The translations under genes were made by a program, and so were the position numbers. The notes under the pieces were generated by a model, which worked only from the letters and a program-made list of their open reading frames with translations, had not been told where the DNA came from and made no database searches. Source: Bacteroidota bacterium (GTDB lineage: Bacteria > Bacteroidota > Rhodothermia > Rhodothermales > Salinibacteraceae). Taken from it: a DNA stretch of 35,111 nucleotides. Each line of letters starts with the position of its first letter. The first letter of the stretch is position 1. Location of the stretch: positions 1 to 35,111 of the forward strand of contig JAAAOT010000204.1 in assembly GCA_009908725.1 (NCBI GenBank). Reading direction: 5' to 3'. Positions 15,747-28,377 of this stretch are shown in pieces.

Positions 15747-17210
15747 CTACGGACCGGACGGACCCGACGGGCCGAGAAGCGGGAACTGCATTTCCTGCGT
15801 GGTCCCGTTTTCAAACCGAACGCGTAGGGTAGCCGTCTGCGAGCCATCCTCAATTTCGCCCGGAGGCGTGATGAGCCAGATCTCCGTGCGATTCATTTCG
15901 CCCTCTGGAACGGCAATCGGCGTTCGGCCGAGAACCTTGACCGTGGCCGAGGCAGGTTCGATCGCCTCGACCGTGTAGGTCGTCTGCTTGGGCGACTGGT
16001 TGAGTACGCGGAAACGGAGACGGTTGGCGACCTCGTCGTTCGGGAGGACGACGAACGGTTCGCCGGAGGCCCGGGCCACGTTCACATCGTAGGATCCGCG
16101 CGTCGTAAACGCGATGGCGAAGATCGATACGATGAGGACCATCAAGAGGCTGTAGATCACCGTGCGGGGGCGCACCGTGCGACGGCTCTTGCCTTCGTCT
16201 TCGCGCTCGGACGAGTACCGGATGAGGCCCGGCTCGAAGCCGACCTTCTCCATGATGTCGTCGCAGGCGTCGATGCACTGGGTGCAATGGAGGCATTCCA
16301 TCTGCAGGCCGTCGCGGATGTCAATCCCGGTCGGGCAGGTGCGGACGCACGCGTAGCAGTCCACGCAGTCGCCCATGTCCGATCGTTCTTTGCCCTTGCC
16401 GCGCGGTTCGCCGCGTTCCTCGTCGTAGGAAACGATGAGAGAGTCCGGGTCGAGGAGAACCGACTGAAACCGGGCGTACGGGCACGCGATCGTGCACATT
16501 TGCTCGCGGAAGAATCCGAAGTCGAACATGATGAGCCCGGTAGTGCCGGCCATCATGACGAAGTACCCCCAGTGGTCGGTCGGCGAGCCCTGCATCCAGG
16601 TGATCAGGTTGTCCCACCCGGCGAAGTACGCGACGAACGTGTGCGCGAGAGCGAGCGAGAAGGTCAGGTACACGGCGTGCTTTCCGACTTTCCGCCATAC
16701 CTTGTCGAAGCTCCACGGTCCTTCATCGCGGCGCTTCCGCACGTGCTCTTTTCCCTCGAAGAGCCGTTCGACGGGGCGGTAGAAGAATTCGAGATAGACG
16801 GTTTGCGGACACGCCCATCCGCACCAAACGCGCCCGAGGAGTGCGGTGAACAGCACGACGCTGACCAGCGCACCGATCATCAGGAGCATCAGGAGCAGCG
16901 TGTCTGTCGGGTAAAACGTCATCCCGAAGAACGTAAACTCCCGATGCAGCACATCCAGGAAGATGGCCGGCTTGCCGTTGATCTTGATGATCGGAAGCGC
17001 AACGAAGACAGCGACCAGTACCCACGCGACGATGAGACGGTAGTAGTACCAGCGGCCCTTATTCAGCTCAGGGTACAACCATTTCCGGCTGCCGTCCGCG
17101 TTGAGCGTGGCCATGATGTCCTCCGGCGGGGCATCCATCACACCGACGTCTCCGGCGGGGATGAATTGCTGCGTCTGTCGGCCGTTGCTGTTGCGGTCTG
17201 TCACTTCCAT
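15747..17210 (-). CDS. ccoG: cbb3 oxidase accessory ferredoxin-type protein CcoG (FixG/RdxA)
   Basis: WCGWACPQTVYLEFFYRPVERL; two 4Fe-4S clusters: DCVDCYACVRTCPTGIDIRDGLQMECLHCTQCIDACDDIM; C-terminal Ig-like FixG_C region. Confidence 0.95.
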   Translation of the reverse strand: MEVTDRNSNGRQTQQFIPAGDVGVMDAPPEDIMATLNADGSRKWLYPELNKGRWYYYRLIVAWVLVAVFVALPIIKINGKPAIFLDVLHREFTFFGMTFYPTDTLLLMLLMIGALVSVVLFTALLGRVWCGWACPQTVYLEFFYRPVERLFEGKEHVRKRRDEGPWSFDKVWRKVGKHAVYLTFSLALAHTFVAYFAGWDNLITWMQGSPTDHWGYFVMMAGTTGLIMFDFGFFREQMCTIACPYARFQSVLLDPDSLIVSYDEERGEPRGKGKERSDMGDCVDCYACVRTCPTGIDIRDGLQMECLHCTQCIDACDDIMEKVGFEPGLIRYSSEREDEGKSRRTVRPRTVIYSLLMVLIVSIFAIAFTTRGSYDVNVARASGEPFVVLPNDEVANRLRFRVLNQSPKQTTYTVEAIEPASATVKVLGRTPIAVPEGEMNRTEIWLITPPGEIEDGSQTATLRVRFENGTTQEMQFPLLGPSGPSGP

Positions 17211-17448: not shown

Positions 17449-17582
17449 GTAGTTGGATACGGAGAACCGATGTGGTGCAATCCCCCACATGGAAGGTCGG
17501 GGGGACGCGCTATGACCGTTAGGGGCGGATCGGTGGCGGGACCGGCCTCGGGCGGGTTAGGGAAATAAACATTATGGGACAT

Positions 17583-17729: not shown

Positions 17730-18365
17730 TTACTCCATGCGTTCTCCTTCCGGTGCTTTTGCGCCTTCCGGCTCCGTGCCCTGAATGGACTGGATAAAGG
17801 CGACCAACTCGGCCCGTTCTTCCGGGCGGAGGCTGGCGTCCCAGGCCGGCATTCCCTTCTCTGCCACGCCTTCCGTGAGAATATTAAAGATGTCCATGTT
17901 GGTGCCGCCGTGAATCCAGTAGGGATCGGTCAGGTTGGGACCGATCACGCCCTGGCCCTTGTCGCCGTGGCAGGATGCGCACAGGCTCTGGTACGTCTCT
18001 TCGCCGGATGCGGTGCGGTCGCTGTTGCCGATGAACTCGGCGAGCGATGCGGGTGTCGCCTCGAAGGTGGGGTTCGCTTCCGCGTACTCGGCGCGCTGGA
18101 TGGCGAGGGCTTCCTGGCTCTGCGCGAGATCGTCTTCGTACGTGTCTACGAAGTCGAACCACGTGATCCCGACGAAATAGACGACGCTGAAGGCGATGGA
18201 GCCCCAGAAGATCCAGATCCACCATCCGGGCATCGGGTTGTCGTATTCCTTGATCCCGTCGTAGCGGTGACCCTGAATCAGTTGGTCGTGGGTGCGGCCG
18301 TAGAGCGTCGATCCTTCGTCCGATCGGGAGCCCTCGGGGCGAGAAGTGTTGGGGTCGTTAGGCAT
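17730..18365 (-). CDS. ccoP: cbb3-type cytochrome c oxidase subunit CcoP-like, single heme c
   Basis: YDGIKEYDNPMPGWWIWIFWGSIAFSVVYFVGITWF (CcoP N-terminal signature); a single CASCHGDKGQG; IQSIQG C-terminus. Confidence 0.93.
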   Translation of the reverse strand: MPNDPNTSRPEGSRSDEGSTLYGRTHDQLIQGHRYDGIKEYDNPMPGWWIWIFWGSIAFSVVYFVGITWFDFVDTYEDDLAQSQEALAIQRAEYAEANPTFEATPASLAEFIGNSDRTASGEETYQSLCASCHGDKGQGVIGPNLTDPYWIHGGTNMDIFNILTEGVAEKGMPAWDASLRPEERAELVAFIQSIQGTEPEGAKAPEGERME

Positions 18366-18440
18366 GAGGCAGTGCAGGTTGGAACGGCTGGGGCAGAGGG
18401 TGAAGCGCGGCGGGATTACAGGCAATCCCCCGGAATCGGA

Positions 18441-18671: not shown

Positions 18672-19451
18672 CTATTTCGAGGCGTCGGCCGTGACGTCCG
18701 ATTCGGCTGAGCCGGCGTCGGACGGGCCGGCGTCAGAAGGGCCGGCGTCAGAGGCCGCTGCTACGTCCGTCCCGAGGCTCTGCAGATATGCCACGAGGGC
18801 CATGATTTTCTTGTCCTCCAGGTCTGTGGGCCCGCCCTGTTCTTCGACCTCTGTGGCGATGGCCTTCGCCTGCGTTCGTGCGATGGTAGCGGCGTTCTCG
18901 ATGGTTTCCTCCGCGTACGGGGTTCCGAGGCGTTTCAGCGTTCGCAGTTTTGCCGTCAGCCCGTCGAAGTCGATCTTTTTCTCGAGCAGGTGCGGGTAGG
19001 GAGGCATGATGGAGCCCTTGCTGGTGGAGCGGGGATCCTCCATGTGGCGCACGTGCCAGAGCGCCTGCGGCCGGAGCAGGCCTTCCCGGGCGAGGTCGGG
19101 ACCGGTGCGCTTCGAGCCCCACAGGAACGGGCGCTCGTACACTGTTTCACCGGCTTTGGAGTATCCGCCGCCATTTTGACCGTAGCGTTCGATTTCGTGG
19201 CGGAAGGGGCGGACCTGCTGCGAATGGCAGGTATTGCATCCTTCTGCGATGTAGATGTCACGACCCTCGAGTTCGAGCGGCGTCCAGGGCTCGACCGTTT
19301 CGATACGGTCGACCGAGTTGTTTACCAGCACGAGCGGCAGAAACTCGACGAGGCCGCCGACGAGGATGGAGAGCGTGGTGAGGACGGTGAAGACCAGCGG
19401 CCAGCCTTCAAGCGTCCGGTGCATTCCGTTGCTTTTAATGAATCGTCCCAT
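18672..19451 (-). CDS. ccoO: cbb3 oxidase monoheme subunit CcoO
   Basis: GCNTCHSQQVRPFRHEIERYGQNGGGYSKAGETVYERPFLWGSKRTGPDLAREG. Confidence 0.96.
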   Translation of the reverse strand: MGRFIKSNGMHRTLEGWPLVFTVLTTLSILVGGLVEFLPLVLVNNSVDRIETVEPWTPLELEGRDIYIAEGCNTCHSQQVRPFRHEIERYGQNGGGYSKAGETVYERPFLWGSKRTGPDLAREGLLRPQALWHVRHMEDPRSTSKGSIMPPYPHLLEKKIDFDGLTAKLRTLKRLGTPYAEETIENAATIARTQAKAIATEVEEQGGPTDLEDKKIMALVAYLQSLGTDVAAASDAGPSDAGPSDAGSAESDVTADASK

Positions 19452-19559: not shown

Positions 19560-21365
19560 TCAGGACGCGTCGTCTTCGTTGTCGTCGTCGTCCGCATCGT
19601 CGGACGCGTCCGGTCCCTTGGCTTTCTTCGAGCCGGGGAGCTGCGCCTTCTTGGTGCCGGGGCCCTCTGCTTTTTTCGGGCCGGGGCCTTCCGCTTTCTT
19701 CGTTCCCGGGCCCTCGGCCTTCCTGGAGCCGGGCAGGGACGCTTTCTTCGTCGCGGGTGTGTCGTCCGCCTCGGTCGGGACCGGGTCGGATTCGCTGGCG
19801 GTGCGAGCACGGGCAGGCGCGGGCTCGGGGGCCTGCTCGGAGGTGCCGTCGCCGGAACCGTCGCCGTGACCGTAGTTCATCGGCTGGCGTGGGGCGGCAA
19901 AGGCCGGATCGGGCAGTTCGTCCGGGGCGGAGCGGATGGTCATGTACATGTTGGCCATCATCATGACGACGCCGCCGAGGTAGAGCAGTCCGCCGATCAG
20001 GCGAACCCAGTACATCGGGATGACCTGCACGACCGTCTCGATAAATTCGGGGTACATCAGGTTGCCGGCTTCATCAAACGCGCGCCACATCAGGCCCTGC
20101 GTGATACCGGAGTTGTACATGGCGAGCACGTACAGCAGGATGCCAATGGTGCCCGTCCAGAAGTGGGCGTTGGCCAGTTTCTGGCTCCAGAGCTCCGTTC
20201 GCCAGAGGCGGGGCAGCAGCCAGTAGATCATGCCGAAGGTCATAAAGCCATTCCAGCCAAGGGCACCGGAGTGCACGTGCCCGATCGTCCAGTCGGTGTA
20301 GTGGCTGAGCGCGTTTACGCTCTTAATCGACAGCAGCGGCCCTTCGAAGGTCGACATGCCGTAGAAGGTGATGCCGATCACGAACATCTTCAGCACCACG
20401 CTATCACGCAGCTTGTGCCACGCACCGCGGAGGGTGAACAGCCCGTTGATCATGCCTCCCCAGCTCGGCATCCACAGCATCACGCTGAAGAGCATCCCCA
20501 GGGTACCCGCCCATTCGGGGAGCGAGGTGTACTGCAGGTGGTGCGGCCCGGCCCAGATGTAAATGAACACCAGGCTCCAGAAGTGGACGATGGAGAGGCG
20601 GTAGCTAAAGACCGGCCGCTCGGCCGCTTTCGGCATGAAGTAGTACATCAGGCCGAGGAACGGCGTGGTCAGGAAAAAGGCCACCGCGTTATGCCCGTAC
20701 CACCACTGCACCAGGGCATCCTGGACGCCGGCGTAGATCGGGTAGCTCTTGAGCATCGAGGCCGGCAGAGCGAGGCTGTTGCCGACGTGCAGCACGGCGA
20801 CCGTTACGATCGTCGCGATGTAGAACCAGAGCGCCACGTACAGGTGCTTCTCACGGCGCTTGTAGAGCGTCCCGAAGAAGTTGATTGCAAACACGATCCA
20901 GACGACCGCAATCGCGATGTCGATCGGCCACTCCAGCTCGGCGTACTCCTTCGAGGTGGTGTATCCGAGAGGAAGCGTGATCGCCGCCGAGACGATGATG
21001 GCCTGCCAGCCCCAGAAGTGGAACTTACTCATCCAATCGCTGAACATCCGTGCCTTGCACAGACGCTGCGTGGAATAGTAGATAGCCGCGAAGATGGAGT
21101 TGCCGGCAAACGCGAAGATGACCGCGTTCGTGTGCACCGGACGGAGGCGGCCGAAGGACAGGTACTCGCCAAGGTTGGCGGCAGGCCAGGGCAGCTGCAG
21201 CGCGATCAGGGCTCCGACAGCCATGCCGATGAAGCCCCAGAGGACCGTCGCGTACACGAAGTAGCGAACGATCTTCTCGTCGTACGTGAAAATGTCAATG
21301 TTCGAACGCTCGCGCCCGGCCGAACGCATATCGGTTGGCGCTGAAGCGGTGCTGGCTTGAGCCAT
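19560..21365 (-). CDS. ccoN: cbb3 oxidase catalytic subunit CcoN with octapeptide-repeat and acidic C-terminal tail
   Basis: [113 protein letters not shown]. Confidence 0.97.
19608..19751 (-). repeat. Degenerate 24-bp tandem repeat (6 units) inside the ccoN 3' end
   Basis: Translates to [48 protein letters not shown]. Confidence 0.9.
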
Positions 21366-21566
21366 GGGTAGGTACGTAGGATAAGCGGTGAGGGCGGTGG
21401 AGCGAGCTCCGCATGGGCGATGCGAGAGCGGGGAATCGGCCTCAGCGCGACCAGCACGGTCACGGAGAACACGACTCGGCAATTGTGACGAAAACGTATG
21501 AGGTGGCGATCGGGATGTCTGTCGGTAGCCTCTGTAGCCCGACGTAGGTCTCGCCCGACCTGCCGT

Positions 21567-21583
21567 GTGGGGATGATCCCCAC
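21567..21583. promoter_or_regulatory. Perfect 17-bp palindrome upstream of ccoN
   Basis: GTGGGGAT-G-ATCCCCAC, 8-bp perfect arms. Confidence 0.6.
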
Positions 21584-21707: not shown

Positions 21708-22730
21708 TCAGACGGCGTCCGTCGTGGAAGACTCCGTGTTCGTTTTCCAGCCGGTGGTTCGAGCCGACACGTCGGGTGCAGAGCCGGGCGCGCCGTCATT
21801 TGTTCCAGCGCGCGGTGTCCACGTCTCGCCCACGAGCGATCGGCCGAACGCGCGGGTTAGAAAGACCGGGCGGGCGACGCGTCGCAGCACGCGTTCGACG
21901 ACGTGGCCGAGCGGATGCTGTTCACGGCTGATCGTGCCGTGGGTCGACATGACGAGCAGGTCGCTGTCCTGCTTGGTGGCGAATTGCCCGATCTGGTCGG
22001 CTGCGTCTCCGTGGCGGATGTGCACGTGAACGGTCGGGTAGAGCGGGCCGTCCGGAATGAGGGCCTCCGCGCGGCGTTTGGCTTTCCGTTCCGGAAGCGT
22101 GGCGTCGCTGAGCGAGAGCATATCGGTCTCATTGAGCGCAACGTACTGCGGCCGGTCCATCACGTGGAGCAGATCGATCTCGGCATCCAGGTCGACCGCC
22201 ATCGCGAAGGCGTGGCGGAGGGCGGACATCGAGTTCTCCGAAAAGTCCGTCGGCACGAGAATGCGACGGATGGGCGAGCGATGATCTTCGCCCACCGTTC
22301 CACACCGCATGACCGAGCGGCCCGTCACGAACACCGGGACGTTCAGGCGCGTCACGAACTGCCGCGTTGGCTCGCTGGCCAGGGCGGGGATGGGGCCGCG
22401 GTCCGACGGCGTGTCCAGCACCACCAGGTCGATGTCTTCCTGCTCTACGTACTGCAGGATTCGGTCGACGGTGACCACGTCCTCATCGAGCGCCGTGGTG
22501 ATCGAGCGCGGCGGGAGCGGCGAGCCACTCGTAGCCGCCGCCACGATGTCCAGAATCTGGTTGTGCAGGGAGCGCACAGGTCCAGCGTCGGGTGCGGCGG
22601 TCGCCTCTGGATGGGGCACCACGTGCACCGTCGCACGGCACGTTTCCGCTAGGGAAAGCGCCTGCATCAGGGCCGGGTGCGCGTCGGCGCCGGGGTGAAC
22701 CGGGCAAAGAATGGTATTGGCGGAAAGCAT
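21708..22730 (-). CDS. Tandem universal stress protein (two UspA domains)
   Basis: MLSANTILCPVHPGADAHPAL...; second domain IRRILVPTDFSENSMSALRHAFAMAVDLDAEIDLLHVMD...DLLVMSTHGTIS...VLRRVARPVFLTR. Confidence 0.92.
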   Translation of the reverse strand: MLSANTILCPVHPGADAHPALMQALSLAETCRATVHVVPHPEATAAPDAGPVRSLHNQILDIVAAATSGSPLPPRSITTALDEDVVTVDRILQYVEQEDIDLVVLDTPSDRGPIPALASEPTRQFVTRLNVPVFVTGRSVMRCGTVGEDHRSPIRRILVPTDFSENSMSALRHAFAMAVDLDAEIDLLHVMDRPQYVALNETDMLSLSDATLPERKAKRRAEALIPDGPLYPTVHVHIRHGDAADQIGQFATKQDSDLLVMSTHGTISREQHPLGHVVERVLRRVARPVFLTRAFGRSLVGETWTPRAGTNDGAPGSAPDVSARTTGWKTNTESSTTDAV

Positions 22731-22947
22731 AAGGCCACATCGGTCGGATGAATCCCCGTGTTGATCGACATTTCCGAACAGAGTCGCTCCCACGTTCTGG
22801 GGAGAGGAACGGCGTGAGGCAAGAGCGGGGAGGTAACGTGTCGCCCCTCGACGGTCTCATCGATCCGTTTCCAAAGACGCGGTTGAGCGGTCGCGATCAT
22901 GACAGAAGCACCACAGTGACCTACGTGGAGAGATGTCGTTCAGCGAT

Positions 22948-22964
22948 GTAGGGGAAATGCCCAC
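22948..22964. promoter_or_regulatory. Imperfect 17-bp palindrome between divergent usp and sensor kinase genes
   Basis: GTAGGGGAAATGCCCAC; 12 of 17 bases identical to the site upstream of ccoN. Confidence 0.45.
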
Positions 22965-23225: not shown

Positions 23226-25262
23226 ATGGACACGCTTGTATATGGTCCTGCATCGCAGAACCGCACGGTCGTTGAGCGGGTGCTCCGCGAACGCGGGCAT
23301 GCCGTTGACGTCGCCGCTCCATCTCACGATGCGCCTCCGACGGAGGAAGCAGGCCGGTTCGCCTATGATGTGTGCGTGGTTGTTGACTCGGAGCCGCCGG
23401 TCTTGCGCCGAGCGGAAGAATGCACGCAGCAGTATGACGACCTGCAACTGGTTCTCATCGGCGTTGACCGGGATCCGGAAAGCATCCACCGGGCATTCGA
23501 GGCGGGGGCGAGCGACGTGATTCTCGACGGGTTCGATGCCGATCGGCTGAGCACCCGTCTCGGCCTGGTCGAGCAGTACGTCGAGTCGAACATTCATCGT
23601 CCGCCGGAGGCCTCTCCGTCGCGGCACCAGGCCGTTGTGGCCGAGATCGGTCGCCGGGCACTGGCGGGAACCGAGCTGGAGGTGCTCATGGCACAGGCCG
23701 TGCGCGCCGTGGCTAAGGCGCTCGACCTGAGCATGTGCAAGGTTCTTGAGCATGATCCGGCCCAGAACTGTCTCCGCATAAAGGCCGGCATTGGCTGGTC
23801 GGCCGGAGCAGTTGGCTCAGCCACGGTGACGGACGGTACCGAGTCGCAGGCCGGATACACGCTCCAGGCCGACGCCCCGGTGGTCGTCGAAGACATCAAC
23901 GAGGAAAGCCGGTTCACACCGCCGGACCTTCTGACCGCGCACGGCGCCACGAGCGGGGTCAGCGTCGTCATTGCGAGCACGCCCTCACCGTACGGCATTC
24001 TCGGCGCCCACAGCACCGATCGTCGCGGCTTCGACGAGGAGGACGTGTATTTCCTTCAGTCTGTGTCCAATGTTCTGGCAGGGGCGGTCGAGCGCGCCCG
24101 GACGGAGCGCGCGTTGCGGGAGAGTGAAGCGCGCGCCACGTCGATCATCGATACGACCGTCGACGGCATCATCACGATCGACACCGGCGGCATCATCCAG
24201 TCCTTCAATGCTGCGGCGGAGCGCATCTTCGGGTACACCGCCGAGGAGGTGATGGGCAAGAACGTAAAGGTGCTGATGCCGCAGCCGTACCGGGAGGAGC
24301 ACGATAGCTACATGCGCAGCTATCACGACACCGGCCGACGGCGCATTATCGGGATCGGTCGCGAGGTCACGGGCCGCCGCAAGGACGGTAGCACCTTTCC
24401 GATGGACCTTGCGGTGAGCGAGGTGCACACGGGGTCCGTCCACGCATTCACCGGGATCGTGCGCGACATCAGCGAGCGACGACGGCTGGAGAAAGAGATT
24501 CTGGACATATCCGAGCAGGAGCGTCGACGCATTGGCCAGGACCTGCACGACGGCCTCGGCCAGATGTTGACCGGCATCGGTCTGCTGAGCCAGAACCTGT
24601 CGCGCCAGCTTCGGAACGAGGACAGCGAGTTGGTGGACGAGGCGGAAGAAATCACCGACCTCATCAAGGAGGCGGATCAGTATGCACGCGACCTCGCCCG
24701 GGGCCTGACGCCGGTCGATCTCGAGGCAAACGGTCTTTCGAAAGCCCTCCAGCGACTGAGCGACAACGCCGAGCGTCTCTTCGGTGTCGAATGCACGCTC
24801 GACGAGGCCGGGACGGGACTGGTGCATAACGCCACGGCCGCCACGCACATGTACCGAATTGCGCAGGAGGCCGTCAGCAATGCCGTCCGGCACGGAAGCG
24901 CCGAGCGCATCAAGATCGCGTTTGCGTCGGGAGCCGAGCAGATTCGCCTGCGCATCCAGGACGACGGCGTCGGATTTTCCCCGGAGAACATCGACGGGCC
25001 GGGGATGGGCGTTCATATTATGAACTACCGCGCCCGCATCATCGGCGGGACGCTGGAGATTAGCAGTACGCCGGCCGGCGGGACGACGGTGACGTGCACG
25101 TTGCCCGGCGGCGCCTCGCCCGGTGGCGGGGACGGTGAACGCAGTGCGCAGGAGGGTCCGCCCGGCCCGCCCGTGGGCACGACCGACGGCAACGGCACCG
25201 GCCCCTCAAACATCGGCGGCGGCCCGTCGAGCGGAGGCGGTGGATGCCCGGTGGCCCACTGA
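23226..25262 (+). CDS. Oxygen-sensor-like histidine kinase: receiver-like N-terminus - GAF - FixL-type PAS - HisKA_3 - HATPase_c
   Basis: PAS: [74 protein letters not shown]; H-box [23 protein letters not shown]; HATPase [14 protein letters not shown]...IQDDGVGF...[16 protein letters not shown]. Confidence 0.95.
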   Translation: [678 protein letters not shown]

Positions 25263-26703: not shown

Positions 26704-27357
26704 ATGACGGATATCATCATTGTTGACGACCATCCGCTGATGCGAAAAGGTCTGGCTCTGGCGCTTGATGCCGAGGCGGAGTTCAACGTGTCGGGGCAGA
26801 TGAGTAGTGCGGAGGAGGCGCTGGAAGACATCGACGAATTGGATCCCGACCTCGCCATCATCGACATTTCGCTGCCGGGCATGAGCGGGATGGAGCTCGT
26901 GAAGCACCTTCAGGCTCGCAAGCCGGACATCAAGATCCTCGTGGTGTCGCGCCACGACGAAACGCTCTACGCCGAACGTGCCATCCGGGCCGGTGCCCGC
27001 GGGTACGTGATGAAGCTCGAAGCGGGCGAGATGATCGTCAAAGCCGTCCGGCAGGTCATGCGCGGAGGCATCTACGTGAGCGACGAGATCAACGAACGCC
27101 TGCTGATGAGCATGGCCACGGGCGGACGGGAACGGATCACGCAATCGCCGCTGGAGATCCTCAGCGACCGCGAGCTGGAAGTGTTTGAGCTCACGGGCCA
27201 CGGCTCGTCTACGCGCGACATCGCCGAACGCCTGCACCTGTCCGTGAAAACCGTCGAGTCGTATCGGGCCCGGATCAAGAAGAAACTGAACCTCGAATCG
27301 GCAACCGAACTCATGAAGCACGCGGTGCAGTGGGTTGAGAGCGAAAGCGCGACCTGA
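26704..27357 (+). CDS. NarL/FixJ-family response regulator (REC + LuxR HTH)
   Basis: MTDIIIVDDHPLMRKG; phospho-acceptor D54 in IIDISLPGMSG; LSDRELEVFELTGHGSSTRDIAERLHLSVKTVESYRARIKKKLNL. Confidence 0.96.
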   Translation: MTDIIIVDDHPLMRKGLALALDAEAEFNVSGQMSSAEEALEDIDELDPDLAIIDISLPGMSGMELVKHLQARKPDIKILVVSRHDETLYAERAIRAGARGYVMKLEAGEMIVKAVRQVMRGGIYVSDEINERLLMSMATGGRERITQSPLEILSDRELEVFELTGHGSSTRDIAERLHLSVKTVESYRARIKKKLNLESATELMKHAVQWVESESAT

Positions 27358-27423: not shown

Positions 27424-28377
27424 ATGCTTGACATCAACCGTATTCTTTTTCCGACGGACTTCTCGGCAGTCGCGGAAGATGCCTTTTCGCACGCCGCACA
27501 CCTTGCGATGCGGTATGACGCCGAAGTGTACGTCTTTAACGTCGTGACCCCGCAAGAGGCTCACGAGATGAACCCGATGGAGTACCTTCCGCTTGAGGAA
27601 GTGGAGGGACGTCCTGGAATGTTCTACATGCCGGCGGAAGGCGTCGACGTAAAAACCCCTGCGGAGGAAGAGGGGCGCGTCCGCGTGACGTACGGTCAGA
27701 TCGAGTCCGTATCGCCTGCCCATGCGATCATCGAGCAGGCCAAGTCCGACGACGTCGACCTGATCGTGATGGGCACGCACGGCCGGCGGGGTTTCGACCG
27801 GCTCCTCAGTGGAAGCGTGTCGGAGGAAGTCGTGCGTGAGGCGCCCTGCCCCGTGTTTACGGTACTTGCGGGCGACGAACCCACGGCCGGTCCGTTTGTG
27901 GATCACGTGCTGGCCCCGGTCGACCTGTCCGATCAGTCCCGTCTCGTGGCCGACCACGCGGCGGAGCTCGCGGCGACGTACGAGGCGCGCCTGACGCTGA
28001 TGCATGTCGTCGAGCAGGCGGCCTACCCGACGGTGTACGGCGTCGACCCGCTGGCTCCGGACCTTCCGAACGTCGAGGCCCGGGCGCGGGAAGCGCTCGA
28101 AGAGGTGGCCGACCGCGTTCGCGACCGTGTCGATGACGTGCATACGGTCATCACGACCGGGTACGCGGCGCGCGACATCGTCGATTACGTGGAGGAAGGC
28201 GACGTCGACCTCGTGGTGATGGCGACGCACGGGCGGACCGGACTGAAACGGTTCGTGATCGGCAGCGTAGCCGAGAAGGTCGTGCGGACGGCGCCGTGCC
28301 CCGTATTCACGCTGCGGAGCTTCGGACGGAGTCTGCTGCTGCAACCGGCGGGCGAGGGCAGCGAAGAAGCGTCGTAA
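27424..28377 (+). CDS. Tandem universal stress protein (two UspA domains)
   Basis: INRILFPTDFSAVAEDAFSHAAHLA; LIVMGTHGRRGFDRLLSGSVSEEVVREAPCPVFTV; VVMATHGRTGLKRFVIGSVAEKVVRTAPCPVFTL. Confidence 0.95.
   Translation: MLDINRILFPTDFSAVAEDAFSHAAHLAMRYDAEVYVFNVVTPQEAHEMNPMEYLPLEEVEGRPGMFYMPAEGVDVKTPAEEEGRVRVTYGQIESVSPAHAIIEQAKSDDVDLIVMGTHGRRGFDRLLSGSVSEEVVREAPCPVFTVLAGDEPTAGPFVDHVLAPVDLSDQSRLVADHAAELAATYEARLTLMHVVEQAAYPTVYGVDPLAPDLPNVEARAREALEEVADRVRDRVDDVHTVITTGYAARDIVDYVEEGDVDLVVMATHGRTGLKRFVIGSVAEKVVRTAPCPVFTLRSFGRSLLLQPAGEGSEEAS

Follow-up and report, generated by a model that had tools for sequence, protein, structure and literature searches.

A palindrome upstream of ccoN is a probable operator of a putative oxygen-sensing two-component system in the Rhodothermales

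The described systems closest to the locus analysed here are FixL-FixJ of rhizobia, NreB-NreC of Staphylococcus and Bacillus, and DosS/DosT-DosR (DevR) of Mycobacterium together with OsdK-OsdR of Streptomyces. In FixL, a histidine and an arginine of the haem-PAS domain bind haem and gate O2, and FixJ, in a system that has cbb3 oxidase as an output, acts mainly via FixK. NreB, a kinase of HisKA_3 type with a PAS domain that works with a NarL-family regulator, carries a cysteine-held Fe-S cluster. The mycobacterial and streptomycete kinases are also of HisKA_3 type, with haem in a GAF domain, and their operators are G-tract/C-tract palindromes of 16-20 bp with a GGG-N8-CCC core, such as the 16-bp AGGGCCGATCGGCCCT type. 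The OsdR and DevR regulons contain universal stress protein (usp) and nitroreductase genes, and OsdR has a predicted PPDK target (PMC5069765).

The window, that is, the whole stretch of 35,111 nucleotides that was analysed, corresponds to contig C313 in a draft genome of 4.05 Mb (G000); among named relatives, MAGs of Rhodothermia/Rhodothermales are the nearest to its ccoN. It encodes on the plus strand a sensor kinase (23226-25262) in which Pfam identified GAF, PAS, HisKA_3 (PF07730) and HATPase_c domains. The best PDB matches of the PAS domain are haem domains of FixL (E 1.8e-38), and all 32 sequences compared, that of the window among them, have the His that ligates haem in FixL and the distal Arg, so that haem-based O2 sensing by this domain is highly probable. 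The kinase shares with NreB the combination of PAS and HisKA_3-type core and the NarL-family partner, but its 125-residue PAS segment matches FixL and contains no cysteine. In a Salinibacter-like genome (G008; locus L191, 7062-8459) the kinase keeps the FixL-type PAS, with the GAF part replaced by a different, apparently membrane-spanning N-terminus. The response regulator, encoded on the same strand (26704-27357), is of NarL/DevR type according to Pfam and to its matches among solved structures, DevR being the best (3c3w, E 1.9e-30), followed by NarL (9.7e-27) and FixJ (1e-13). Its orthologues above about 60% identity are found in most of the order, frequently adjoining ccoN, and their recognition helix, LSVKTVESYRARIKKKL, is nearly invariant. 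Although a His and an Arg placed as in FixL and the cbb3 oxidase as output are shared with FixL-FixJ, the system is not a member of that type, because the kinase core is HisKA_3, the FixL-type HisKA not being listed among its Pfam domains, and the regulator resembles FixJ less than it does DevR and NarL; moreover, the site described below lies directly upstream of ccoN.

The preliminary description had reported a perfect 17-bp palindrome with 8-bp arms some 210 bp before ccoN and outside any coding sequence, and both statements were confirmed. The palindrome GTGGGGATGATCCCCAC (operator 1, no strand assigned) occupies exactly positions 21567-21583, with 8-bp perfect arms flanking a single base, and its centre lies 210 bp upstream of the ccoN ATG at 21365, 124 bp beyond the end of usp1 at 21708 and in no called gene. 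Its outer arms, GTGGGG and CCCCAC, are separated by a 5-bp spacer. The 4.05 Mb of the genome contain three copies of the form GTGGGG-N5-CCCCAC and, when one mismatch is allowed, 16, compared to 13 for the reversed control, while the two-mismatch form is at chance level, with no enrichment, within the window. Counts in the organism's own genome are thus uninformative as evidence for a motif, and the palindromic form by itself is not rare and could be due to chance. What places the palindrome above chance is that its arms are kept in a diverged intergenic stretch of the sister species and that a relaxed form of the motif precedes orthologous genes throughout the order. On the ccoN side of operator 1, a weaker half-site CCTAC (21544-21548, minus strand), 23 bp from the CCCAC of the operator, shows in the column profile of an alignment of 23 sites upstream of ccoN and is found at the same place in the sister species. 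Further on towards ccoN lies a block conserved with that species, TCATACGTTTTCGTCACAATTG (21480-21501, minus strand), in which TACGTTTT is a possible -7 element of the Bacteroidota type; no sigma-70 consensus was found.

In the sister species (G001, same genus, CcoN 92% identical) the orthologous place carries GTGGGGATCCGCCCCAC, in which the 6-bp arms and the spacer length of GTGGGG-N5-CCCCAC are the same, but the inner pairs have changed, as has much of the flanking sequence. Since the sister retains the arms alone, the two extra inner pairs are not part of the conserved unit, and the perfect 17-mer was rejected as the functional one. A second site with one mismatch, GTAGGGGAAATGCCCAC (operator 2, 22948-22964, no strand assigned), lies in the divergent intergenic region between usp1 and the kinase gene and is perfect in G001 and G008. 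Its counterparts are GTAGGGGAAACCCCTAC in G001, GTAGGGGAAATTCCCAC in G006, GTGGGGGCACGCCCCAC in G008 and GTGGGGATTTTTCCTAC in G004, and the motif was therefore relaxed to GTRGGG-N5-CCCYAC. The predicted functional unit is thus a pair of 6-bp arms around a 5-bp spacer, or YGTRGGG-N5-CCCYACR in its extended form. A third site, GTGGTGCAATCCCCCAC (operator 3, 17472-17488, no strand assigned), also with one mismatch, lies between ccoP and ccoG and has counterparts in G001, G006, G032 and G038. Exact matches to the relaxed motif number 35 in eight genomes of the family, against nine for the reversed control, and 25 of the 31 sites whose surroundings were read are intergenic, as compared to 3 of 9 control sites (Fisher p = 0.012; genes were called with a simple codon-usage script, so that individual cases may be wrong). 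The preliminary description had named equal frequency of the motif in other sequence as an outcome that would refute its proposal, and this refutation did not come about. Four near-copies of GTGGGGATAGACCCCA(T/G) within 1 kb of the sister genome (G001:C10:110022-111014) form a local repeat that looks unrelated to the motif.

Of 27 Rhodothermales loci, two of which are repeats of genomes already counted, 10 have the motif upstream of ccoN without a mismatch, 9 with one and 6 with two (reversed control 0, 1 and 3); that is, 19/27 loci have it with at most one mismatch, against 1/27 for the control, and 0/71 ccoN loci of other phyla do. Among 19 genomes outside the family in which the motif had been defined, 13 carry it at this threshold before ccoN, and in the same genomes none of the other combinations of permuted letters and spacer length, 780 in all, reaches the count of the true half-site and spacer, the runner-up, with 9 loci, being an overlapping register. 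Spacer 5 scores best among lengths 0 to 12, and the column profile of the 23 aligned sites reads YGTAGGG-N4-CCCCYACR. The ccoN upstream regions of many genomes contain, in addition, a weaker half-site, CCYAC, on the downstream side of the operator at a distance of 23 bp, about two helical turns, which suggests tandem dimers or a promoter element. The motif also precedes the kinase gene, with at most one mismatch, in 18 of 23 loci (control 0/23), the usual mark of autoregulation. A good site is absent before ccoN in G044 and G030, though both have ccoN with a regulator adjacent, and none was found upstream of the kinase genes of L181 (G035), L130 (G047) and L299 (G212).

Over the order, an excess of the motif is seen solely in families that have the regulator. 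The members of families f14 and f15 that were sampled have no close orthologue of it; in these families the motif has 8 matches against 23 for the control (22 genomes), whereas in the other families it has 162 against 79 (92 genomes), a contrast (Fisher p = 1.5e-5) to which base composition may contribute. When the scan was extended to the class outside the order, an exact match was found in one of the four genomes with a close regulator, namely G187, of another order, where the only one in the genome is about 0.5 kb from the kinase match, on its upstream side; one of the ten genomes without a close regulator match has an exact site, within a long open frame. The presence of the motif before ccoN and the kinase gene, its excess solely in families bearing the regulator and the near-invariant helix together support the earlier proposal that the palindrome is a binding site for the regulator encoded at 26704-27357, and on these comparative data such binding is very likely.

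Among the genes that repeatedly follow the sites are ccoN, usp1 and the gene of the kinase. In the window, the likely targets, all on the minus strand, are ccoN (19560-21365, cbb3 oxidase subunit I, Pfam COX1), ccoG (FixG-like; 15747-17201, start approximate; Fer4_18 and FixG_C) and usp1 (21708-22793, start uncertain; Usp). Between ccoN and ccoG lie ccoO (18672-19451, minus strand, FixO) and ccoP (17730-18425, minus strand, FixP_N and Cytochrome_CBB3), and a second universal stress protein gene, usp2 (27424-28377, plus strand), assigned by Pfam Usp and synteny, stands directly downstream of the regulator gene. Elsewhere, sites precede a second usp gene (G000, G001, G008, G015, G020 and G004), hemA (G000, G001, G006, G033 and G045), a ccoI-type ATPase gene (G035 and G047), nitroreductase genes (G052), a PPDK-like gene (G047), and genes for a cytochrome c with Rrf2, HiPIP and PEPCK; ten of the target identities were confirmed by Pfam and the rest come from reading translations. 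In several g8 genomes they precede an apparent ba3-type oxidase operon, assigned by eye, whose small first protein had no Pfam match. This distribution, mainly intergenic and before respiration, haem and usp genes, agrees with the enrichment upstream of respiration and usp genes that the preliminary description had suggested looking for. One operator lies between hemA and a divergent gene for a DUF819 membrane protein (G000:C244:11855-11871, G001:C1:675587 and G006:C96:5626), which hints that the latter may also belong to the regulon.

The output side thus resembles the DosR and OsdR systems in the kinase type, in DevR as the nearest solved regulator, in the G-tract/C-tract palindrome and in a regulon with usp, nitroreductase and PPDK genes. 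It differs from them in the operator, GTRGGG-N5-CCCYAC and not the 16-bp type, the motif, with 5 as its best spacer, lacking the GGG-N8-CCC core; probably in the place of the haem, which is expected in the FixL-type PAS and not in the GAF domain; and in having cbb3 oxidase and haem synthesis as core targets. The resemblance to NreC and DosR boxes noted earlier is thus a loose one: the orientation of the G- and C-tracts is common to them, while spacing and flanks differ. By sequence comparison, the system appears FixLJ-like at the sensor end and DosR/OsdR-like at the output end.

It could be argued that the operator is read by a different regulator and that the adjacent system is merely among its targets. 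Each genome encodes about 20-45 related NarL-family proteins, so that another of them could read the site, and these include a paralogue 57-58% identical to the regulator (57% for G000:C77:3253-3888; in the sister, G001:C1:561308-561943). This paralogue is less likely as the reader because its recognition helix differs, and the tie of the site, over many families, to the gene of the regulator's partner kinase, and to the presence of the regulator, together with the position of the only copy in G187 next to this system, makes a different reader improbable. A somewhat less remote alternative, though still an unlikely one, is that the system works as proposed but the regulator represses, or that the signal is NO, CO or the redox state instead of O2. 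Haem-PAS proteins can bind gases other than O2, genes for Rrf2-family regulators stand beside some sites, and sequence alone does not give the sign of regulation; against this, the PAS domain is closest to that of the O2 sensor FixL, the target set fits low-O2 respiration, and the sites are mostly well upstream of the start codon, as is the case with activators.

Two further explanations do not involve a regulator of this type. The position of the palindrome past the usp1 stop and its possible 8-bp stem would suit an RNA hairpin such as a usp1 terminator, but there is no T-run, terminator-like site or Rfam match at the palindrome, the motif also occurs in divergent intergenic regions, and the inner pairs of the stem are missing in the sister; the search for terminators and known RNA elements thus gave no support to this reading, which is very improbable. 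That the palindrome arose by chance in a GC-rich genome would agree with the counts in its own genome, barely over the control, and with the lack of enrichment in the window, yet it is scarcely credible in view of the orthologous conservation and the coherent targets over genera and families.

The palindrome is, as far as comparative evidence can indicate, one copy of a DNA switch that is conserved throughout the order Rhodothermales and located before genes of low-O2 respiration, haem synthesis and stress proteins. It is likely to be an operator for the neighbouring O2-sensing system, through which the cco and usp genes would be activated at low O2. In the mechanism that we propose, the FixL-type haem-PAS of the kinase would sense O2; as O2 falls, the haem would become empty and the kinase active, and the NarL/DevR-type regulator would be phosphorylated. 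A dimer of the phosphorylated regulator would bind GTRGGG-N5-CCCYAC, a second one perhaps occupying the weak half-site that lies closer to the gene by 23 bp, and the bound regulator would activate ccoNOP, ccoG, the usp genes and its own kinase gene. The activating sign is probable, though held with less assurance than the operator itself, since FixL and DosR set a precedent for it and the sites lie upstream.

No report of the motif or of the system was found in the open-access papers searched. There is about an even chance that the system represents a global O2 regulon of the Rhodothermales, a counterpart in Bacteroidota of the dormancy regulon of mycobacteria. In that case its kinase would be of DosS/NreB type but with a haem-PAS of FixL type, its regulator DosR-like with an operator code of its own, and under their control would stand haem synthesis, copper loading, cbb3 oxidase and further oxidases, universal stress proteins and nitroreductases. 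For this group the open-access literature searched describes no such regulator, and from one palindrome the analysis has arrived at an order-wide candidate regulon that can be tested and whose sensor, regulator, operator and targets are named. If this regulon is real, a FixL sensor module would be joined to a DosR-like output, and low-O2 respiration and universal stress proteins would be linked outside the actinobacteria.
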